A model generated the notes under the pieces. That model saw only the letters and a program-made list of their open reading frames with translations. It made no database searches and was not told where the DNA came from. A stretch of 64,000 nt of DNA from Thermanaerothrix sp. (GTDB lineage Bacteria; Synergistota; Synergistia; Synergistales; Synergistaceae): assembly GCA_026417795.1 (NCBI GenBank), contig JAOACP010000006.1:1-64000 (forward strand), in the 5' to 3' direction. The translations under genes were made by a program, and so were the position numbers. Each line of letters opens with the position of its first letter. Within the stretch, counting starts at the first letter, position 1. Below, one piece after another: positions 14,908 through 41,901 of the stretch.

Positions 14908-14919
14908 CTCTAAGCAGCA

Positions 14920-15006
14920 TCGGGGGAGCCGAAGGGCTGAGAGGGGGGCATGATAGCCCCCGACCCCTTGAACCTGATCCGGGCAATGCCGGCGAAGGGA
15001 AGGTGC
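14920..15006 (+). promoter_or_regulatory. TPP riboswitch (THI element)
   Basis: All hallmark segments are present in order: GGGGAGCC, GGCTGAGA (14935-14942), a variable GGGGGC/GCCCCC arm, GACCCCTTGAACCTGATCCGG, CAATGCCGGCGAAGGGA, and a closing strand. It senses thiamine pyrophosphate. An intrinsic terminator follows at 15036-15064, so control is probably by premature termination before thiT. Confidence 0.94.
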
Positions 15007-15035
15007 CGAACCCTTTTTAAAAATAGGGCGTTGAC

Positions 15036-32457: not shown

Positions 32458-34435
32458 ATGCAATCCAAAGCCCCCAGCCTTGAAGAGATCTTCGCTCCCA
32501 AGACGTTGAAGCAGCGAGGCTGGGCTTTTCTTCTCCTGTCCCCACAGGGGGAGCTGTTGGACCACAACCAGGAGGGGCTGGAGCTGGCCCGGGAGATGGG
32601 ACTTGCAGAGGGGCAGACCTTCGCAAGGAAGGGACACGGCGCCGCCAGGGAGGCGTTTCTTTGGGCCCTGCGGGGCAGGGCCTCAAGGCTCAGGCTCCAC
32701 TTGGAGGACCGCAGCGTGACGGCCTTCGTGAACCCGGTCCCCTCCGGCGTGTCGGTGATGGCCTCCTGGGACAGGGCTTCCATGTGGGAGGATATGCTGC
32801 TGGGGCAGGTGGACAGGATGTGCGTGGTCCTAGACCACGAGGGCCGGGTGATGGCCGCCACCGACGCCATGTTGGATCAACTGAAGACCCCCATGAACCG
32901 TCTTCTGGGGAAGCGCTTCTCAAGGTTCCTGCAGAGCCCCGCCACCGCCTCCAGCGTGGCATGGATAGTAAAGGAAAAGGGGCATTGGGAGGGTGAGGTG
33001 AACCTGCGCCGCTTAGACGGGGCGATAGTGCCCCTTAAGGTGCGGGTGCGCTCCATAAACGACCCCCGGGGAGGGAGGATAGGTTTCTCGGTGCTGGCGG
33101 ACAACACAACGCAAGATGCCGCCCCGCCCTGGATCTACACCCACGACCCGGTGACCGCCCTGCCCAACCGCCCGTACCTGTTAAGCCGGCTTTCCGAAAT
33201 CCTCCCCCCCAGCCACGACCCGGTGGGGCTTCTGCTGGCGGACATGGATAGGTTCCGGGACGTAAACGTGCTCCTTGGGCACGACGGGGGGGATCGGATG
33301 CTCCAGCTGGCCCTGCGGCGCATAAAGGACGCGGTGGGGAAGAACGAGGGGGTGTTCCGGCTGGAGGGGAACACCTTTGCGGTGCTGCTGTCCCGCCACG
33401 AGACCGAAACTTTGGCATTGGGGGATCGGGTGGTGGAGGCCTTCCGGGAACCCCTTACGGACACCCACCCGGTGATAACCGTGAGCTGCAGCGTTGGGAT
33501 ATCCATATCACCCCACGACGGCACAAGGCCCGACGAACTGCTTGACAAGGCCTTTCACGCCCTGCGCCGGGCCAAGGAGCTGGGGGGAGCTAGGTGCATC
33601 CGGTTCAACCGGGACATCCGAAGGGACTTCACCATGAGGATGGTGCTGGAGAACGGCATCCGACGGGCCATCCGGGAGGAACAGTTCCAGCTGCACTACC
33701 AGCCCCTGGTAAACCCTGTCAACTGCAAGGTGGTGGCCATGGAGGCCCTGCTCCGCTGGCCCACCGGGAAGGGAACCTACGTGCCCCCCTCCAAGTTCAT
33801 ACCCATAGCGGAGAGCACGGGGCTCATCCTCGAGATAGGCGAGTGGGTGCTCAACCGGGCCTGCATGGACGCCAAGAGCTGGTCCCAGGGCCCCATAGGC
33901 GAAGTTCCGGTCTCCGTCAACCTATCGGGCACGGAGCTTAGGCTGGGCAACCCCGAGGAGAAGATAAGGCTGGCCCTCGAGAGATCCCAGCTGGACCCCA
34001 AGCTTCTCATAGTTGAGATATCGGAGAACGCCATCCTTGAGGAGCGGCGGAGGGCCGAGAAGGTGTTCTTCGACCTTAGGAAGGCCGGAGTTAGGATTTA
34101 CATAGACGACTTCGGCACCGGTTACTCGTCGTTGAGCTACCTTAGGGACTTCACGCTGGACAGGTCTTAAGGTGGACAAGTCCTTCGTAAGCCAAGTTCC
34201 AAGGAGCGAGAAGGACATGGCCCTAATAGCCGCCATACTGGGCATGGCCAAGGCCCTTAAGCTTGAGACCGTGGTGGAAGGGGTGGAGACCCGGGAACAG
34301 TGCTCCGCCGTGACCAACATGGGCATAGGCTGCATACAGGGGTTCCTGTTCAGCCCCCCTATGCCGCTAAAGTCGCTGGAGTCCATGGTGTCCGAGTCGG
34401 GGATCCTGTCGCACCCCCTAAGACTCCCCCGATGA
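32458..34435 (+). pseudogene. PAS-GGDEF-EAL protein interrupted by a frameshift
   Basis: The first frame (570 residues, to 34170) holds two PAS-like regions, a degenerate GGDEF domain (the GGDEF position reads LEGNTF, so no cyclase activity is expected) and most of an EAL domain: MEALLRW (E429), SVNLSG, VEISENA, IDDFGTGYSS. Just after YLRDFTLDR it meets TCT-TAA. Reading one base further gives LKVDKSF and continues in the other frame through VVEGVETREQ and IQGFLFSPP to 34435, restoring the catalytic Lys, Glu and Gln. One extra base near 34165 thus splits a c-di-GMP phosphodiesterase. Mutation, sequencing error or +1 recoding are all possible. ATG after AAGGAGA. Confidence 0.85.
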
Positions 34436-35752
34436 CAGGGACCTTAGACTCCTTCTGACCAGGTAGAATCCCAAGAGACACCCTCCCACGTCAGCCACCG
34501 GCAGCGCCATCCAGACGCCGGTTATGCCGAATATGGGCGGCAGCACCACGAGGGGCACCAGGACGAAGAGCACCACCCGGCACATGGCGGAGAGAAGCCC
34601 CGCCCGCCAGTTGCCTATGCCTTGGAAGTAGTAGCCGGCGGTTATGGACATCCCCGCCATGGGGGCCCCGGCGTAGGACACCCTAAGCCCCCATGCGGCC
34701 ATCTTTAGAAGCTCCGGGTCGTTCTTCACGAACAACCCCACCAGCTGTTCCGCAAAGATCTGGACCACCAGGAGGCTAAGGCAAAAATAGCCCACCGCGT
34801 AGGCCACCGCGGTCCAGATGGTCCTCCTCACCCGTTCCAGGTTCCCCGCCCCGTAGTTGTACCCTATTATGGGCTGGGCCCCCTCCCCCAACCCTATGGC
34901 GGGGAGGAAGAACAAAGCGTCCAGGCCGAAGAATATGCCCAGGGCGGAAAGTCCTGCGTCGCCGCCGTAGAACTTGACCTGCCGGTTCATCAGGGCTATC
35001 ACTATGGTGAACCCCATCTCGGTGAGCCCCGAGGGCAGCCCCACGGACACGATGCGCCTCATGATACAAAGGTCCGGACGGAGGTGCCTTACGCCAAGCC
35101 TTGAGGTCCTAAGGACCAGCAGGACCCCGGAGAGGGCCATGAAGGCCTGGGACACCAAGGTGGCCCAAGCGGCTCCCTTGACGCCGGCGTGAAGCCCCAT
35201 CACCCACCACCAATCCAGCGCCACGTTCAGCAGCGCCCCCGCCAGCTGCACCCCCATGGCGGAGTTGGGCCTGTTGAGGGCCCTTAAGACCGGCGTCATG
35301 GTCATCCCCACCACCGAGAATATGGAACCGGGGAGCACTATCCTCATGTAGTCCCTTGAGAGCTGCAGCACCCTACCCTCCCCCCCCTGGGAGGAGGCGA
35401 AGAGGTCCATCCCCACCAAGGATGCCGCCACGAACACGCCGCCCCCCACCAGGGCCAGTAGAAGCCCGTTGCCCAGGGCCCTCAAGGCCCCATCCCGGTC
35501 GGAGGCCCCAAGGCATATGGCCATCCGGGAAGAGGTCCCCACCCCCGCCACAAGCCCAAGGGCGATGAAGGCAAGCATGATCGGGAACGCCAGGGAGAGG
35601 GCCGCAAGCCCCTCGGAACCCACCGCCCGGCCCACGAAGACCCGGTCGGTTATGTTGTAAAGGGCGTGGGCTATCAGCGCCCCTATGGCGGGGCCCGAGA
35701 ACTTTACGATCAAAGACGATATTGGGGCCTTGCCCAGACGATCTTCGCTCAA
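34418..35752 (-). CDS. MATE-family multidrug/Na+ antiporter
   Basis: 444 residues, 12 membrane helices. N-terminal ISSLIVKFSGPAIGALI, NITDRVFVGR and, in the second half, GLGEGAQPIIGYNYGAGN are MATE hallmarks. It exports cationic compounds using Na+ or H+. The TTG at 35752 is chosen: AGGAGG lies ten bases upstream, whereas the ATG at 35773 is before that site and only about 11 bases from the predicted transcription start. Its 3' end overlaps the convergent EAL gene by 18 bases. An inverted repeat over the promoter suggests repressor control. Confidence 0.93.
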   Translation of the reverse strand: MSEDRLGKAPISSLIVKFSGPAIGALIAHALYNITDRVFVGRAVGSEGLAALSLAFPIMLAFIALGLVAGVGTSSRMAICLGASDRDGALRALGNGLLLALVGGGVFVAASLVGMDLFASSQGGEGRVLQLSRDYMRIVLPGSIFSVVGMTMTPVLRALNRPNSAMGVQLAGALLNVALDWWWVMGLHAGVKGAAWATLVSQAFMALSGVLLVLRTSRLGVRHLRPDLCIMRRIVSVGLPSGLTEMGFTIVIALMNRQVKFYGGDAGLSALGIFFGLDALFFLPAIGLGEGAQPIIGYNYGAGNLERVRRTIWTAVAYAVGYFCLSLLVVQIFAEQLVGLFVKNDPELLKMAAWGLRVSYAGAPMAGMSITAGYYFQGIGNWRAGLLSAMCRVVLFVLVPLVVLPPIFGITGVWMALPVADVGGCLLGFYLVRRSLRSLSSGES

Positions 35753-35778
35753 ATCGCTGAATCCTCCTAACATGCAAT

Positions 35779-36163: not shown

Positions 36164-37435
36164 TTGGCTGATTACCGTGAGATGTGGAGTGACCTTGGAC
36201 TGGACTTGGAGCTGCACGACAAGCTCTGCGCCGCTCTACCACCCCTTTTCGAGGAGGCGTTCCTCCACCAGAAGGACCGGCCCTCCGGGATGGACTACTT
36301 CAACATGGTGATAGCGGAGGTCCACGGGCTTAGGATAAAGGAGCTGGTAGACCACAAGAGGAACGGCGGGTTCGTGGCGGGCTCCTTCTGCGTCTACGTC
36401 CCCGAGGAGATAATCCTGGCCCTCGGGGGCCTCATGGTGGGGCTTTGCGCGGGCTCCCAGTTCTGGGTTCCTGAGGGCGAGAAGGTGCTGCCCAGGAACC
36501 TCTGCCCCTTGATAAAGGCCGCCCTGGGAGCCAAGCTGTCCAAGACGTGCCCCTACTTCCAGTCGGTGGACCTGGTGGTGGCGGAGAACACCTGCGACGG
36601 CAAGAAGAAGGCCTGGGAGGAGATGGGCCGTCTGGTCCCCACCTACGTCATGGACCTTCCGAACCGCAAATCCCCGGAGGGTAAGGCCCTTTGGCGCTCC
36701 CAGGTAAGGGAGCTCATAGGGGAGCTGGAAGGCCGCTTCAACCGGAAGCTCACCCATGAGAAACTCCTGGAGGCCATCGAGAAGGTGGAGGCCAAGAGGC
36801 AGGCCCTTAGGGACCTTTACGAGACCCGCAAGGCGGACCCAGTTCCCATATCGGGGATAGACTCCCTGGTGGTGTCCCAGATAGCCTTCTACGACGACAT
36901 AGGCAGGTTCACCTCCATGACCCGGCAGCTCGCCGATGAGTGCAGGGACCGGGTAAGCTCCGGCTTTGGGGTGTTCCCCAAGGGGACCAAGCGGGTGCTC
37001 TTGACCGGGAGCCCCATAGTGGTGCCCAACTGGAAGGTACATCACATCCTGGAGACCAGCGGGGCCGCGGTGGTGGTGGAGGAGAACTGCACCGGCACCA
37101 GGTACTTCAAAAGCTCCGTGGACACCTCCGCCAAGGACCTGGAGGGTCTCATAGACGCTCTGGCGGACCGCTACCTTGATGGCATAAACTGCGCCTGCTT
37201 CTCCCCCAACCAGGGCCGGCTGGACGACGTGGTGGAGCTGGCAAGGGAGTACCGTGTCCACGGGGTGATAGACGTTACCCTCAGCTTCTGCTCCACCTAC
37301 CAGGTGGAGGAGGCATCCCTCAAGAGGCGCCTTAAGGAGGAGGGAATTCCGCTCCTTTGCCTTGAGACCGACTACGCCCCCGGCGACGAGGGACAGATCA
37401 GAACCAGGGTCGAGGCGTTCCTGGAGAGCCTTTAA
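36164..37435 (+). CDS. Double-cubane cluster protein (2-hydroxyacyl-CoA dehydratase family, YjiM-like)
   Basis: 423 residues, HgdB/BcrC-like. The NTCDGKKKAWEEMG segment, LCAGSQFWVPEGE, RNLCPLIKAALG, KTCPYFQSVD and EENCTGTRYF supply conserved cysteines. This variant with CDGKKK and an adjacent ATPase corresponds to the double-cubane [8Fe-9S] cluster proteins (DCCP), which reduce small molecules at very low potential, rather than to the two-subunit dehydratases. TTG start six bases after AAGGAGGAG. The activator gene follows 31 bases later. Natural substrate unknown; the downstream Se/S genes are suggestive. Confidence 0.9.
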   Translation: MADYREMWSDLGLDLELHDKLCAALPPLFEEAFLHQKDRPSGMDYFNMVIAEVHGLRIKELVDHKRNGGFVAGSFCVYVPEEIILALGGLMVGLCAGSQFWVPEGEKVLPRNLCPLIKAALGAKLSKTCPYFQSVDLVVAENTCDGKKKAWEEMGRLVPTYVMDLPNRKSPEGKALWRSQVRELIGELEGRFNRKLTHEKLLEAIEKVEAKRQALRDLYETRKADPVPISGIDSLVVSQIAFYDDIGRFTSMTRQLADECRDRVSSGFGVFPKGTKRVLLTGSPIVVPNWKVHHILETSGAAVVVEENCTGTRYFKSSVDTSAKDLEGLIDALADRYLDGINCACFSPNQGRLDDVVELAREYRVHGVIDVTLSFCSTYQVEEASLKRRLKEEGIPLLCLETDYAPGDEGQIRTRVEAFLESL

Positions 37436-37466
37436 GAGACTCAAGAGACACCGGGAGGCGTGATTC

Positions 37467-38225
37467 ATGTCCTTGGCCCTTGGGGTAGACGCGGGAAGCC
37501 GGTTCATAAAATGGGTGCTGCTCAAGGATCAGGCCCTGGAGGACATGGGAAGGATATCCTCCGAGGGGACGGACCTTAAGTCCCTGCCCTCCCGCCTTCC
37601 AAGCGCTCCAACAGCGGGGCTCACCGGCTACGGCCGGCACCTTCTGAAGGGGATTTTCGACAACTGTTCTGTGGTGTCCGAGATATCCGCCCACGCCCTG
37701 GGGGCCGTTGCCCTGGCCCCTGGGGCCCGGTTCGTGCTGGACGTGGGGGGCCAGGACAGCAAGGCCTTGGAGATGGATACACGGGGAAGAGTCTTGGACT
37801 TTCGGGTGAACGACCGCTGCGCCGCCGGCACCGGCCGTTTCCTTGAGAACATGGCAAGGGTCATGGGGTTCGGCATGGTGGAGATGGTACGGGAGGCCCT
37901 TGAGGCCCAGGAGGCCGTGGAGGTGAGCTCCATGTGCGCGGTCTTCGCGGAGAGCGAGGTCATATCCCTCTTAAACCGCGGAGTTCCAAGGGGCAGGGTG
38001 GCCAAGGGGATGTTCCAGTCCCTGGCCCGAAGGCTTGAGGCCCTTGGAAGTTTCATAAATCCCCAAGGGGGATCCTTCGCCTTCACCGGGGGGCTGTCCC
38101 AGCTGGAAGGCGCTCCGGAGCTCATGTCCACGGGGCGGATGCGCCTTAACCCCGTGAAGGATGGGGCCTTCGCCGGGGCGTTGGGGGCGGCGCTTACGGC
38201 CTTGAGGGGGGTGCCGGTTGGCTAG
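37467..38225 (+). CDS. ATP-dependent reductase/activator of the double-cubane protein (BadF/BadG family)
   Basis: 252 residues, ASKHA ATPase. GVDAGSRFIKWVLL and VLDVGGQDSKALEM are nucleotide-binding motifs; Cys118 (NDRCAAGTGRF) and Cys157 (SSMCAVFAESE) should bind the [4Fe-4S] cluster bridging the homodimer. It hydrolyses ATP to drive a low-potential electron into its partner, here the DCCP encoded just upstream. ATG with GGGAGG upstream. The DUF3343 gene starts eight bases inside its end, so all three are co-translated. Confidence 0.92.
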   Translation: MSLALGVDAGSRFIKWVLLKDQALEDMGRISSEGTDLKSLPSRLPSAPTAGLTGYGRHLLKGIFDNCSVVSEISAHALGAVALAPGARFVLDVGGQDSKALEMDTRGRVLDFRVNDRCAAGTGRFLENMARVMGFGMVEMVREALEAQEAVEVSSMCAVFAESEVISLLNRGVPRGRVAKGMFQSLARRLEALGSFINPQGGSFAFTGGLSQLEGAPELMSTGRMRLNPVKDGAFAGALGAALTALRGVPVG

Positions 38226-38451
38226 TTTGTACTGCCTGTTCGAAGGGGCCTCGGAGGGGATGATGCTTCACAAGCGCCTGCGGGAGCTCATGGTGCCCCA
38301 CCACGTATGCCCCTCCCCAAGACATCTCACCGAGAGCTGCGGGATAGCCCTCAAGTTCGACGAGGCCTACCTTGAGCAGGTGGCCCTCAAGGCGGAGGAG
38401 CTCAGCCTTAAGGTGGCGGTCATATCGGAGGATGGGAAGCGTATAAGATGA
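38218..38451 (+). CDS. DUF3343 (putative Se/S carrier-like) protein
   Basis: 77 residues beginning with the family pattern: SLYCLFEGASEGMMLHKRL, then VPHHVCPSPRHLTESCGIALKF. Conserved cysteines at CLF, VCPSPR and SCG are proposed carriers of persulfide or selenide. TTG start six bases after GAGGGGGG and overlapping the preceding gene. DUF3343 proteins commonly occur with YedF, YedE and a cysteine-desulfurase-like enzyme, all present downstream. The function is inferred from such neighbourhoods, not proven. Confidence 0.85.
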   Translation: MASLYCLFEGASEGMMLHKRLRELMVPHHVCPSPRHLTESCGIALKFDEAYLEQVALKAEELSLKVAVISEDGKRIR

Positions 38452-38491
38452 TGGGCTCCCAGGGGCGCTTCTTGCGTGCATGGGCCATTAG

Positions 38492-38596
38492 GCGGCAACC
38501 GGGGCTTTAGGGGACAGGTAAAGCCCCGTTGAGCCGCGGAGGTTTTAAGGTCCCACCGGGGAATCGGGGCGTATAGAGGGGTCTCTTGGCCCCGAT
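38492..38596 (+). other. Two-hairpin structured region upstream of yedF
   Basis: Hairpin 1 (38492-38537): perfect CGGGGCTTTA / TAAAGCCCCG with a 9-base loop, extended by AA/TT and GCGGC/GCCGC around small bulges. Hairpin 2 (38563-38596): ATCGGGGC / GCCCCGAT with an inner AGAG/CTCT, followed by AAAAA. No T-run follows either, so they are poor terminators. They fill the 202-base gap between DUF3343 and yedF, and may be an attenuator, an mRNA processing or stability element, or a ligand-sensing leader. Confidence 0.45.
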
Positions 38597-38653
38597 AAAA
38601 AGGACAATTCCATCAAGCGCCAATGGAGGTTGAAGACGGAGGTGGCATGTGGC

Positions 38654-39262
38654 ATGAGGATAGACGCCAGGGGCAGGAACTGCCCCCAGCCGGTGATGAT
38701 GACCAAAGAGGCGGTGGACCGGGGCGAGGTGGACCTGGAGGTCCTGGTGGACAACCCGGTGGCGGCGGGCAACGTTACCAGGTTCCTTGAGGGCAAGGGA
38801 TACCGGGTCAGCAGGGCGGAAGGTCCAGAGGGTACCCTGATACGGGGCGAAAAGGCTTTGGAGGGGACGGGTTCCCACCCCGTCCCAAGCCCCGCGGAGG
38901 TGGGCGCGGGATGCTCGTGCTCCGCCATGGACATGGGGCTTCTCATCCTCTCCAGGACCATGGGGTCCGAGTCGGCGGAGCTGGGGGAGGCGCTGATGAA
39001 GGCCTTCCTTGAGACCATGAGGCAGTCCGGGCGGGTTGGGGTGCTGGCGTTGATGAACGGCGGCGTCTTCCTGGCCCTTCCGGAATCCTCCGCCTGCGAC
39101 ACCATAAGGGAGATGGAGGCCCAGGGAACCCAGGTGCTGGTCTGCGGAACCTGCACGAAGCACTTCGGAATCACCGACAGGATCGCGGCGGGCGCGGTTT
39201 CCAACATGTTCGAGATAACCGAGCAGGTGTTCCGCATGCCCAAGGCCGTGACCATAGGCTGA
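38654..39262 (+). CDS. yedF: Selenium metabolism protein YedF
   Basis: 202 residues. The N-terminal TusA-like domain (about 1-70) has the CPxP motif (ARGRNCPQPVMMTKEAV). The C-terminal DsrE-like domain (about 95-200) has ILSRTMGSESAELGEALMKAFL, NGGVFLA and LVCGTCTKHFGI, which fits the YedF family linked to selenium use. ATG at 38654, ten bases after GGAGGT; upstream TTG and GTG codons collide with ribosome-site sequence. Probably receives or hands on persulfide/selenide. Confidence 0.92.
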   Translation: MRIDARGRNCPQPVMMTKEAVDRGEVDLEVLVDNPVAAGNVTRFLEGKGYRVSRAEGPEGTLIRGEKALEGTGSHPVPSPAEVGAGCSCSAMDMGLLILSRTMGSESAELGEALMKAFLETMRQSGRVGVLALMNGGVFLALPESSACDTIREMEAQGTQVLVCGTCTKHFGITDRIAAGAVSNMFEITEQVFRMPKAVTIG

Positions 39263-39267
39263 TCCCA

Positions 39268-40434
39268 ATGGAAACCCGCAGGGTATACCTTAACAACGCC
39301 GCCACCACGTGGCCTAAGCCCCTTGAGGTGGCGGAGGCCATGTACCGGTTCATGACCCAGGACGGCGCGAACCTGGCCAGGGGGTCCGCTTCGTCAAGGG
39401 ATCTTGCCACCATGGACATGGTCTTAAGATGCCGGGAGGAGCTGGCCCGGTTCTTCGGCGGCTGCTCCAACGGGGACCCCCGGTACGTGACCTTCACGTC
39501 CAACGTGACGGAGGCCCTTAACGTGGTCCTCAAGGGGTATCTCAAGCCCGGCATGACCGCGGTCACCACATCCATGGAGCACAACGCGGTGATACGCCCC
39601 TTAAGACGCCTTGAGGAGTTGGGCGTCACGGTGCGGGTGGTGAGGTGCGGCCCGGACGGCACGCTTCCGCTGGAGGACTTCAGGGAGGCCCTGAACGGGG
39701 CGGACCTTGCGGTGCTGTGCCACGGCAGCAACGTATGCGGGACAATGCAGGATCTGGAGGCGGTGGCGGAGGCCTGCCGGAGGATGTCGGTTCCATTGGT
39801 GGTGGACTCCGCCCAGACCGCGGGGGTTGAGGAGATATCCGTTTCGGACCTTTCCATAGGGGCTTTGTGTTTTACGGGCCACAAGGGGCTCATGGGACCT
39901 CAGGGGATAGGGGGCATAGTGTGGAGCCCCTCCCTGGCGGAGGCCTGTTCTACCCTGGTGGAAGGGGGCACCGGGAGCTTCTCCCACCAGGAGACACAGC
40001 CCTCCGCCATGCCGGACAAGTTCGAGTCAGGTACGCCGAACCTGCCGGGCATAGCGGGGCTTCTTGGGGCCTTGGGATGGCTGAAGTCCACGGGGATCGA
40101 GGCCATAAGGGCCAGGGAAGCGGAGCTGAAGAGGCTTCTGCTCGAAGGGCTCAAGGGCATCGAAGGCGTTGAGACCTACGGGGTCACCGACCCGGGTAAG
40201 TCCTTAGGGGTGGTGGCGCTGAACCACCGGTCCACGGACAACGGTACCCTTGCCATGGAGCTCTCGGAGCTGGGGATCGAGACCAGGCCGGGCCTTCACT
40301 GCGCCCCCTTGGCCCACAGGACGTTGGGCACCTACCCCGTGGGGGCCTTAAGGCTTTCGGTGGGCTACTTCAACACCGCCGAGGACGTCGAAGCGGCCCT
40401 GTGGGCCCTCAGGGAGGTACTAAGTCGGCGATAA
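39268..40434 (+). CDS. Cysteine desulfurase / selenocysteine lyase-like class V aminotransferase
   Basis: 388 residues. YLNNAATTWPKP at the start, THE-like MEHNAVIRPL, VDSAQTAG, FTGHKGLMGPQG with the PLP lysine, and RPGLHCAPLAHRTLGT with the catalytic cysteine close to the C-terminus. This pattern matches the desulfurase subgroup that co-occurs with yedE/yedF. It would release sulfur or selenium from cysteine or selenocysteine to the neighbouring TusA-type carriers. ATG five bases after the yedF stop; no strong ribosome site. Confidence 0.93.
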   Translation: METRRVYLNNAATTWPKPLEVAEAMYRFMTQDGANLARGSASSRDLATMDMVLRCREELARFFGGCSNGDPRYVTFTSNVTEALNVVLKGYLKPGMTAVTTSMEHNAVIRPLRRLEELGVTVRVVRCGPDGTLPLEDFREALNGADLAVLCHGSNVCGTMQDLEAVAEACRRMSVPLVVDSAQTAGVEEISVSDLSIGALCFTGHKGLMGPQGIGGIVWSPSLAEACSTLVEGGTGSFSHQETQPSAMPDKFESGTPNLPGIAGLLGALGWLKSTGIEAIRAREAELKRLLLEGLKGIEGVETYGVTDPGKSLGVVALNHRSTDNGTLAMELSELGIETRPGLHCAPLAHRTLGTYPVGALRLSVGYFNTAEDVEAALWALREVLSRR

Positions 40435-40440
40435 GGACAG

Positions 40441-41574
40441 ATGAGAGGGAAGGGAGTATTTAAGGTGATCTGTTCAAAGGGAGGCTGTGTTCTTACCTCG
40501 AAGTGGGGCCCCATCATTACCGGCATAGCGGTGGGGATACTGGCCCCGGTGTTGGTGCACCTTGGGAACCCTGGGAACATGGGGATGTGCGTGGCCTGCT
40601 TCACCCGGGACATAGCGGGGGCCCTTGGTTTCCACCGGGCCGCCATAGTGCAGTATCTAAGGCCCGAGATCCCGGGCCTTCTGCTGGGGGCCTTCGGGGC
40701 CTCCATGGCGTTCGGTGAGATGAAGCCCCGGGGGGGTTCTTCGCCGGTGACCCGCTTCTTCCTTGGGGTCTTCGCAATGGTGGGGGCCCTCATCTTCCTT
40801 GGCTGTCCCTGGAGGGCTTACCTCAGGCTGGCGGGAGGGGATCTCACCGCCGTGGCGGGGATACTGGGCTTGATATGCGGCATATGCATAGGGATAGGGT
40901 TTCTGTGGAACGGTTTTAACCTTGGCAGGTCAAGGCCCACATCAAAGGCCTCCGGCTACGTGATGCCCGTGGTGGTGCTTGGACTGCTGGCGCTTCTGGT
41001 GGCGGCGCCACTCATGGGGCGCACCCCGGAGGGGGACCCCACGGGGCCCATATTCTTCTCCGCCAAGGGTCCCGGGGCGATGCACGCCTCGGTGGCGGCA
41101 TCGCTGGCGGTGGGGGCGGTGATAGGCTGGATGGCCCAGAGGAGCCGTTTCTGCACCGTGGGGGCCTTCCGGGACCTCATCATGCTGAAGGACCCGCACC
41201 TTTTCTGGGGCATAGCCGCCCTGGTGGCGTCCGCCGCGGCCACCAACGGGGCCCTTGGACAGTTCAAGCTGGGGGTGGAAGGGCAGCCGGTGGCGCATCC
41301 GTCGCACCTTTGGAACTTCCTCGGCATGATGCTGTCCGGGTTGGCCTTCACCCTGGCGGGTGGATGCCCGGGCCGGCAGGTGATAATGTCCGGAGAGGGG
41401 GATTCCGACGCGGCGGTGTTCGTCCTTGGAATGCTGACCGGCGCCGCGGTGGCCCACAACTTCACCCTTGCAAGCTCCGCCAAGGGGCCGTCCCCCTACG
41501 TCGTGTGGGCTTGGGGCTTGGGGATGATCTTCTGCCTCGCGGTGGGGTTCCTGAGCCGCAACGAAAACGTCTAG
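40441..41574 (+). CDS. yedE: YedE-type sulfur/selenium transporter
   Basis: 377 residues, about nine or ten membrane helices. Family cysteines: MCVACFTRDIAGALG, QRSRFCTVGAFRDLIM and LAGGCPGRQVIM. YeeE/YedE proteins import thiosulfate or related oxyanions; the YedE branch is proposed for selenium compounds. ATG at 40441 follows the preceding stop by six bases but is only three bases from AAGGA; GTG at 40465, eight bases after GGGAG, is an alternative that would remove eight residues. Confidence 0.91.
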   Translation: MRGKGVFKVICSKGGCVLTSKWGPIITGIAVGILAPVLVHLGNPGNMGMCVACFTRDIAGALGFHRAAIVQYLRPEIPGLLLGAFGASMAFGEMKPRGGSSPVTRFFLGVFAMVGALIFLGCPWRAYLRLAGGDLTAVAGILGLICGICIGIGFLWNGFNLGRSRPTSKASGYVMPVVVLGLLALLVAAPLMGRTPEGDPTGPIFFSAKGPGAMHASVAASLAVGAVIGWMAQRSRFCTVGAFRDLIMLKDPHLFWGIAALVASAAATNGALGQFKLGVEGQPVAHPSHLWNFLGMMLSGLAFTLAGGCPGRQVIMSGEGDSDAAVFVLGMLTGAAVAHNFTLASSAKGPSPYVVWAWGLGMIFCLAVGFLSRNENV

Positions 41575-41611
41575 GCGGGCTTAAACGCACACAAGGGGGG
41601 TGCATCTTAAC

Positions 41612-41833
41612 ATGTCTTCCAGCGCAACCGTCGACGCCAGGGGGCTGTCCTGCCCCCAGCCGGTGCTTTTGACCAAGAAGGCCCTGGACTCCTCACCGGA
41701 GCTTCCCATAACCATCCTGGTGAGCACCGTGACATCCCGGGAGAACGTCATGCGGTTCTGCTCCTCCAGGGGTCTTTCGGCATCGTGGGAGGAAACCCCC
41801 GACGGAGACTTTAGGATAACCGCGGGCTCTTAA
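41612..41833 (+). CDS. TusA/SirA-family sulfur carrier
   Basis: 73 residues with the CPxP motif near the start (DARGLSCPQPVLLTKKAL), the active cysteine at about residue 14 carrying persulfide. TusA proteins pass sulfur (or selenium) from a desulfurase to acceptors. It closes the yedF-desulfurase-yedE run and is followed by a strong terminator. ATG is preferred to a GTG four codons upstream, which touches the AAGGGGGG ribosome site. Confidence 0.93.
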   Translation: MSSSATVDARGLSCPQPVLLTKKALDSSPELPITILVSTVTSRENVMRFCSSRGLSASWEETPDGDFRITAGS

Positions 41834-41866
41834 ATCTTAAACAACATAAGGCTACTTAAGCATCAC

Positions 41867-41901
41867 AACAGGGGAGGGGACAGCTCCTCCCCTGTTGTTT
41901 T
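41867..41901 (+). terminator. Terminator of the Se/S gene cluster
   Basis: Perfect 11-bp stem AACAGGGGAGG / CCTCCCCTGTT, loop of 8, then GTTTT. Confidence 0.85.

Follow-up and report, generated by a model that had tools for sequence, protein, structure and literature searches.

What would a double-cubane cluster protein (DCCP) do among genes for selenium and sulfur trafficking? Structural studies of DCCPs date from 2018, the year of the work on the Carboxydothermus hydrogenoformans protein and its reductase that is reportedly due to Jeoung and Dobbek (PDB 6ENO). Their biological function was still described as unknown in 2025 (PMC11971306). The question is raised by a 64,000-nt stretch of Thermanaerothrix sp. 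DNA (contig JAOACP010000006.1), referred to here as the window, in which positions 36164-41833 of the forward strand hold seven co-directional genes, for DCCP, its presumed reductase (DCCR), DUF3343, YedF, a class-V desulfurase, YedE and a TusA-like carrier (Table 1).

Table 1. Genes of the cassette and its closing terminator, in positions of the window.
Feature	Position	Strand	Basis
DCCP (double-cubane cluster protein, group A, 6ENO type), 423 aa	36164..37435	+	NF040772 and 6eno_A
DCCR, BadF/HgdC-type ATPase, presumed DCCP reductase, 252 aa	37467..38225	+	TIGR00241, PF01869
DUF3343 (Se_S_carrier), 77 aa	38218..38451	+	PF11823, alignment A3, structure model
YedF, about 202 aa; TTG at 38630 is a possible earlier start	38654..39262	+	TIGR03527
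Class-V PLP desulfurase / selenocysteine-lyase-like enzyme, 388 aa	39268..40434	+	TIGR01977
YedE, putative selenium/sulfur membrane transporter; start unsure (40441-40489)	40441..41574	+	TIGR04112
Single-domain carrier resembling TusA/SirA, 73 aa, with a CPQP motif; GTG at 41600 is a possible earlier start	41612..41833	+	PF01206
Intrinsic terminator closing the cassette (predicted)	41864..41898	+	RNA fold

The gene order, strand and coordinates given in an earlier note on this DNA all proved correct on re-checking. The close packing that it described for the first three genes takes the form of a 31-nt gap between DCCP, which starts with TTG behind the ribosome-binding site AAGGAGGAG, and DCCR, followed by an 8-nt overlap of DCCR with DUF3343. 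A gap of 202 nt precedes YedF; the remaining gaps are 5 nt (YedF to desulfurase), 6-30 nt (desulfurase to YedE) and 25-37 nt (YedE to TusA), the two ranges reflecting uncertain start codons. Neither a consensus sigma-70 promoter nor a terminator was found in the 202-nt gap, such a scan being weak evidence, and a search for known RNAs, riboswitches included, returned nothing upstream of DCCP or in this gap apart from one match far below threshold. The single strong terminator noted earlier at the end of the cassette was recovered, with a 15-bp stem, a folding energy of about -29 kcal/mol (-29.4) and a U-rich tract after the stem.

Family models assign these genes clearly. DCCP scores 473.6 bits against NF040772 (cut-off 350) and 451 bits against PDB 6eno_A across residues 2-422, with nine cysteines in common, placed by the alignment at C76, C95, C114, C129, C144, C309, C343, C345 and C376. 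It thus resembles the C. hydrogenoformans protein in length, type and the adjacent BadF-type ATPase, from which it differs in sharing one cassette with DUF3343, YedF, the desulfurase, YedE and TusA. Two DCCP subtypes were separated cleanly by the A2 profile (656-815 bits vs 368 bits or less). The partner ATPase expected of a DCCP is present in DCCR (156.7 bits to the activase model TIGR00241, cut-off 125.4; 147 bits to PF01869), and YedF (TIGR03527, 151.5 bits, cut-off 110) contains both of its domains, with CPQP in the N-terminal and CGTC in the C-terminal one. YedE (TIGR04112, 478.8 bits, cut-off 200) and the TusA-like protein (PF01206, 55 bits, cut-off 28.6) also exceed their thresholds. 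The desulfurase, which carries a GLHCAPLAH motif, belongs to TIGR01977 (392.3 bits, cut-off 377) but scores below the threshold of the SclA selenocysteine-lyase model (NF040779, 323.4 bits, cut-off 525), so that its activity may be that of an ordinary cysteine desulfurase. DUF3343 (PF11823, 41 bits, cut-off 25) has a PxPR...CG motif that is invariant across the 39 sequences of alignment A3, with C41 as its one invariant cysteine. Its predicted structure is ferredoxin-like (beta-alpha-beta-beta-alpha-beta, pLDDT 89.6), which does not support a TusA fold; compared with the PDB, the model had no significant match, the best being weak, generic resemblances to PII, ACT and UreE-like structures (E 0.06 or worse).

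The cassette is not confined to one strain. It is kept in full in two genomes of the same genus (G001, G002), and a fourth genome (G006) retains it with the ATPase replaced. Across a wider survey, the neighbourhood that had been expected around DCCP was recovered in part: DUF3343 lies immediately downstream of group A DCCP, the type found in the window, in 72 of 80 loci (and beside it in 14 of 15 in an even sample of Clostridia), and a desulfurase is near it in 45 of 80, whereas yedF adjoins it in 3 of the 80 and yedE in 1. The conserved partners of group A DCCP are therefore DUF3343 and the class-V desulfurase, not yedF or yedE. Among 114 loci, the only widely recurring genes are those for DCCP, DCCR, DUF3343 and the desulfurase. 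The truA, ECF and V-PPase genes seen beside DCCP in this set resemble local Lachnospiraceae synteny.

The selenium traits of the host were examined genome-wide. The earlier statement that selD is missing is correct for the window but not for the genome, where the suggested check located SelD on another contig (G000:C3:25488-26417; 339.8 bits), its selenocysteine position being encoded by an in-frame TGA (TKTSGUAAKIGP). SelB (339.5 bits) and tRNA-Sec (81.1 bits) are also encoded, and YqeB (TIGR03309) had no match in the host genome (G000), G001, G002 or G006. Because SelD, SelB and tRNA-Sec are present and YqeB, the marker of the labile-selenium-cofactor (SDMH) trait, is absent, the host is a selenocysteine user and not a user of the labile cofactor. 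The labile-selenium trait suggested earlier does not hold for this organism, and a cassette serving that cofactor in the host was rejected on the same ground.

The selenium link of DCCP itself, by contrast with that trait, was strengthened by two kinds of evidence, the first of which is co-occurrence. SelD is encoded in 50 of 196 Clostridia genomes and in all 24 of those with DCCP (15 with group A, 9 with group B only), against 26 of the 172 without it (p about 1e-16, a kinship-blind value with no phylogenetic correction). In a second genome set, 48 of 50 genomes with group A DCCP have SelD; of the other two, one encodes SelB. Among Synergistota genomes with a DCCP the figure is 27 of 30, the three SelD-less genomes having SelB, SelB plus tRNA-Sec, and YqeB, respectively. 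One metagenome-assembled genome (G069) has group A DCCP and neither SelD nor SelB. The link is specific to DCCP, since three of four more distant HGD-D relatives (198-270 bits) occur in SelD-less genomes. Among 14 control genomes, only those of E. coli and M. jannaschii combine DCCP, SelD above the cut-off and PF11823.

The second kind of evidence is the presence of DCCP inside sel operons elsewhere. It lies within a selD-selA-selB operon in one genome (L134: selD-selA-selB-DCCP-DUF3343-DCCR) and within yqeB-yedF-selD operons in three: two like clusters, L150 and L151 (yqeC-yqeB-yedF-selD-DCCP-DCCR-mocA), and L011 (yqeB-DUF3343-selD-yedF-mocA-SclA-like-DUF3343-DCCP-DCCR), which comes from a genome with 6% contamination (G035:C79) whose taxonomic placement was not relied on. 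Locus L105 reads yedE-tusA-DCCP-DCCR-DCCP-DUF3343-desulfurase-selD-yedF. Most DCCPs sit away from sel genes, and on the DCCP tree linkage to selenium genes requires 11-12 changes; it has therefore been gained or lost repeatedly. Since DCCP occurs in operons of both the selenocysteine and the labile-cofactor type, it probably acts before the two traits diverge, by providing SelD with reduced selenium; the step common to them is the selenide that feeds SelD.

Known systems resemble the cassette in part. E. coli has DCCP, ATPase and DUF3343 genes in a row (yjiM-yjiL-ytiA) and also SelD, but YjiM is of the shorter group B type, and yedF, yedE and a desulfurase are not adjacent. For Slackia heliotrinireducens, a STRING table ties together an activase, a 2-hydroxyglutaryl-CoA dehydratase subunit, DUF3343, a Sec lyase, YedF and SelD, and the discussion of its selenium gene cluster covers YedE, YedF, DUF3343 and LysR only (Lin et al. 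2015, PMC5322559); its selD lies in the same region, unlike that of the host. Selenium-dependent molybdenum hydroxylase (SDMH) clusters like that of E. faecalis (EF2563-2571; PMC2432076, PMC2276186) have two genes in common with the cassette, those for YedF (EF2566) and for a class-V desulfurase resembling EF2568 (TIGR01977), whereas the host cassette is without YqeB, YqeC, SelD and hydroxylase, YqeB being absent genome-wide. In the accessible part of Kountz and Balskus 2023 (PMC10418091), a dicubane cluster protein is "provisionally linked to selenium metabolism" and DCCP/DCCPR are drawn among the selenium genes of Type 1 mlp gene clusters, which encode corrinoid methyltransferases absent from the host cassette; no DCCP-SelD co-occurrence test was found in that part of the paper. 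The link is thus already published, provisionally, with gene neighbours reported in 2015, and what appears new to the literature is how strong the co-occurrence is.

Given the selenium-gene content and conserved order of the cassette, the co-occurrence with SelD and the ties to two different selenium traits, the DCCP module may act in selenium metabolism upstream of the selenophosphate synthetase SelD, with a probability that we put at about one half. DCCP is likely to be part of selenium supply; for selenide-forming reduction as its reaction, the odds fall a little short of even. YedE would let in, or retain, a selenium (or sulfur) species, and the desulfurase would release selenium or sulfur from selenocysteine or cysteine onto the single-cysteine DUF3343, YedF and TusA. 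ATP hydrolysis by DCCR would push electrons of very low potential to the [8Fe-9S] cluster of DCCP, which could then reductively free carrier-bound or oxidised selenium as selenide. SelD would convert this to selenophosphate, which the host would use for selenocysteine synthesis and some other species for the labile selenium cofactor as well. Sulfur-transfer chemistry is known in the DCCP superfamily from TudS (PMC11971306). Against selenide supply stand the 26 of 50 SelD-bearing Clostridia without DCCP; with about half of SelD genomes lacking it, DCCP is not essential for SelD function. The distance of most DCCPs from sel genes, the case of G069 and the sub-threshold SclA score of the desulfurase also count against it, and it is not obvious why electrons driven by ATP should be required to reduce Se(0) or selenite. 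It is rather doubtful that DCCP-DCCR is a dedicated ATP-driven reductase giving SelD selenide from DUF3343-bound selenium, which would be the first natural function of a DCCP; a bolder version makes selenium the bridging atom of the double-cubane cluster.

Other readings were weighed against the same observations. Single-cysteine DUF3343 and the desulfurase, as the most conserved neighbours of group A DCCP, could serve to mature it by delivering the ninth, bridging chalcogenide (sulfur, possibly selenium), with DCCP acting on some other substrate. We consider this unlikely, as it leaves unexplained why DUF3343 adjoins yedE-tusA-selD without DCCP in three genomes (G004, G024, G025) and, unless the cluster contains selenium, why DCCP tracks SelD. 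Enzymes of the DCCP superfamily cleave C-O and C-S bonds reductively, so DCCP might instead cleave the C-Se bonds of organic selenium such as methylselenides or selenosugars, as opposed to reducing inorganic or carrier-bound selenium. TudS is an example of such enzymes (PMC11971306), the accessible part of PMC10418091 includes DCCP in methyltransferase clusters proposed for methylselenides, and the G006 cassette additionally encodes an ECF S component and a putative desulfidase with a relationship to TudS; the host cassette, however, has no methyltransferase gene, and this reading seems quite improbable.

A sulfur relay, in which polysulfide or thiosulfate is reduced or sulfane sulfur transferred and the SelD co-occurrence is secondary, would suit the resemblance of YedE to thiosulfate transporters (a weak TsuA match), the possible sulfur-carrier domains of TusA, YedF and DUF3343, and the occurrence of DUF3343 in SelD-less organisms (PMC5322559). 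Sulfur metabolism being universal, it fails to predict the restriction of DCCP to selenium users in the Clostridia, and we regard it as having little probability. It is very improbable that DCCP and SelD lack any functional link and co-occur through strict-anaerobe lifestyle and ancestry: many Synergistota and Clostridia do have both traits and the Clostridia counts ignore kinship, yet the sampled Clostridia are largely anaerobes with SelD in only a quarter, one of the two controls with the full combination, E. coli, is a facultative aerobe, and the gene clusters joining DCCP to selenium arose or were lost many times.

Selenide supply is, to our knowledge, a step without an assigned enzyme in many anaerobes. 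The near-complete dependence on SelD and the sel gene clusters point to this supply as the function of DCCP and reduce the question to a short list of tests, and the same trio of genes in E. coli makes its role approachable in an ordinary laboratory strain.

The seven genes of the cassette lie in the positions and order described by the earlier note, all on one strand, and a strong hairpin closes them, in agreement with the single terminator it proposed. In profile searches, curated cut-offs were exceeded by DCCP, the activase (DCCR), YedF, YedE, the TIGR01977 desulfurase, DUF3343, and TusA, and the desulfurase fell short of the SclA selenocysteine-lyase cut-off. The match between the window DCCP and the solved Carboxydothermus protein spans the entire length. 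The DUF3343-YedF gap measures 202 nt here and a few tens of nt in G001 (L007), a genome of the same genus; this shortening favours a single putative unit that includes the junction. A MATE-like efflux protein, recognized by eye, is divergent from the cassette, and the window also carries a TPP riboswitch.

Coordinates of the features discussed (G, genome; C, contig; L, locus; G000, genome of the window)
Feature	Location	Strand	Remark
Seven-gene cassette	window 36164-41833	+	
MATE-like efflux protein	window 34418-35773	-	
TPP riboswitch	window 14912-15018	+	73 bits
SelD	G000:C3:25488-26417		TGA at canonical site TKTSGUAAKIGP
tRNA-Sec	G000:C5:89676-89767		81.1 bits
SelB	G000:C18		339.5 bits
Second DUF3343 gene	G000:C1:33435-33632		77 bits
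ECF S component and TudS-related protein	L009:8729-9870		in G006
244-aa protein	L131:12233-12967		
yjiM-yjiL-ytiA	NC_000913.3, 4563668-4565850		L040, E. coli K-12

Among 61 Synergistota relatives, contiguous DCCP-DUF3343-yedF-yedE recurs in G001, G002, and G006 besides G000; the arrangement is therefore not unique to one strain. DCCR and the desulfurase are also in place in G000, G001, and G002. The G006 cassette lacks DCCR, and in its place, between DUF3343 and yedF, two other genes hint at import of a thio- or seleno-compound: one for an ECF S component (CD3073 family), the other for a putative desulfidase related to TudS (CD3072 family). Other relatives carry DCCP and DUF3343 without yedF/yedE (G040, G041, G048, G056, G058, G059), DCCP-DCCR-yedF (G038, G047, G055), or yedE-tusA-selD without adjoining DCCP and in some cases with DUF3343 (G004, G024, G025, G045).

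Profile scores and a tree of 155 proteins cleanly separate group A, the window's type (~421 aa, 6ENO-like), from group B (~384 aa, YjiM-like). In 80 DCCP-A loci from named genomes, an uneven sample ranked by likeness to the query, DUF3343 lies directly downstream in 72 and within 6 kb in 75; DCCR (63) and a class-V desulfurase (45) are frequent within 6 kb, while YedF (3), YedE (1), and SelD (1) are rarely near. In evenly drawn Clostridia, DUF3343 adjoins DCCP-A in 14/15 genomes and the desulfurase in 4/15. Therefore, the core module is DCCP-DUF3343-DCCR, often with the desulfurase, and yedF/yedE joined it locally, in the lineage of the window and in a small number of others; the adjacency suggested earlier is general for DUF3343 and rare for yedF and yedE.

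The distribution of DCCP follows that of SelD. In those Clostridia (196 genomes, at least 90% completeness requested), SelD occurs in 50, including all 24 with DCCP-A (15) or only DCCP-B (9). The hypergeometric p, centre genome excluded, is 1e-16, and the true association is weaker than this implies because genomes were treated as independent despite kinship. In a second set, SelD is present in 48/50 DCCP-A genomes; of the SelD-less ones, G061, apparently identical with the MAG G042, encodes SelB, and the Dorea MAG G069 has neither SelD nor SelB. In Synergistota, 27/30 DCCP genomes have SelD, and the three SelD-less ones carry SelB (G058), SelB and tRNA-Sec (G042), or YqeB (G018, 65% complete). 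Among 14 control genomes, DCCP, SelD over cut-off, and PF11823 coincide only in E. coli and M. jannaschii. Of the more distant homologues that fall in neither DCCP group, G017, G036, and G146 (198-244 bits) belong to SelD-less genomes, with G269 (270 bits, SelD present) as the exception. In the reverse direction, SelD without DCCP is common. In G005 and G011, called 96% complete, tRNA-Sec exceeded the gathering score and SelD was not found, perhaps through assembly gaps.

DCCP also lies inside selenium gene clusters. Locus L134 reads selD-selA-selB-DCCP-DUF3343-DCCR (SelA 626 bits, SelB 407 bits). L150 and L151 read yqeC-yqeB-yedF-selD-DCCP-DCCR-mocA, families being scored in L151 and assigned in L150 from gene order and likeness of starts; in L151 a xanthine-dehydrogenase-like hydroxylase follows mocA. 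L105 reads yedE-tusA-DCCP-B-DCCR-DCCP-A-DUF3343-desulfurase-selD-yedF, and in L131 yedE-tusA-DUF3343 is divergent from DCCR-x-DCCP-DUF3343, with selD ~11 kb off. L011 (G035:C79) holds a complete labile-selenium cluster, yqeB-DUF3343-selD-yedF-mocA-SclA-like-DUF3343-DCCP-DCCR. Same-genus relatives of G035 lack selD; the cluster would reflect recent transfer or contamination, which stands at 6% in this genome. Since the selenium-neighbour label requires 11-12 changes on the DCCP tree, the linkage is not a single inherited event.

The statement that selD is missing holds for the window but not for G000 (1.92 Mb, 97% complete). With SelD containing an in-frame TGA, tRNA-Sec, and SelB present, and no YqeB match in a profile search of the genome, this organism decodes selenocysteine without the labile-selenium-cofactor marker being shown. 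For this genome, the earlier tie to labile-selenium traits thus gives way to a selenocysteine trait. A second DUF3343 gene in G000, scoring above the cassette copy, adjoins no recognised selenium gene and has a counterpart in most relatives.

A 2015 study linked YedE, YedF, and DUF3343 with selenium, and its STRING table already lists an activase next to them, together with a dehydratase subunit (PMC5322559). Kountz and Balskus describe the dicubane cluster protein as "provisionally linked to selenium metabolism" (PMC10418091). In the open-access literature searched, we found no statement of DCCP-SelD dependence and no report that places DCCP in selDAB or yqeBC clusters. Because DCCP joins selenocysteine genes in some species and labile-cofactor genes in others, the step common to both traits should be selenide supply to SelD. 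On the simplest reading, DCCP would reductively free selenium that is oxidised or bound to a carrier; its known reactions so far are small-molecule reductions of unclear relevance (PMC11971306). The alignment shows a single invariant Cys in DUF3343, and the structure model, which predicts a ferredoxin-like fold, puts it in a loop; this fits a possible carrier without proving one. Putative transport by YedE is the weakest step, since in M. maripaludis its deletion gave no clear uptake phenotype, although selenium starvation strongly induces YedE (PMC11097638). The selenide-supply reading gives an orphan metalloenzyme a proposed function that can be tested.

Between DCCR and DCCP-A, L131 encodes a 244-aa protein that received no name from the family profiles used, and a similarly placed 233-aa gene in L012 gives a weak DCCP match. 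In E. coli K-12, ytiA, annotated as uncharacterized, encodes a DUF3343 protein and overlaps yjiL by 4 nt; this bacterium thus possesses the DCCP-DCCR-DUF3343 trio.
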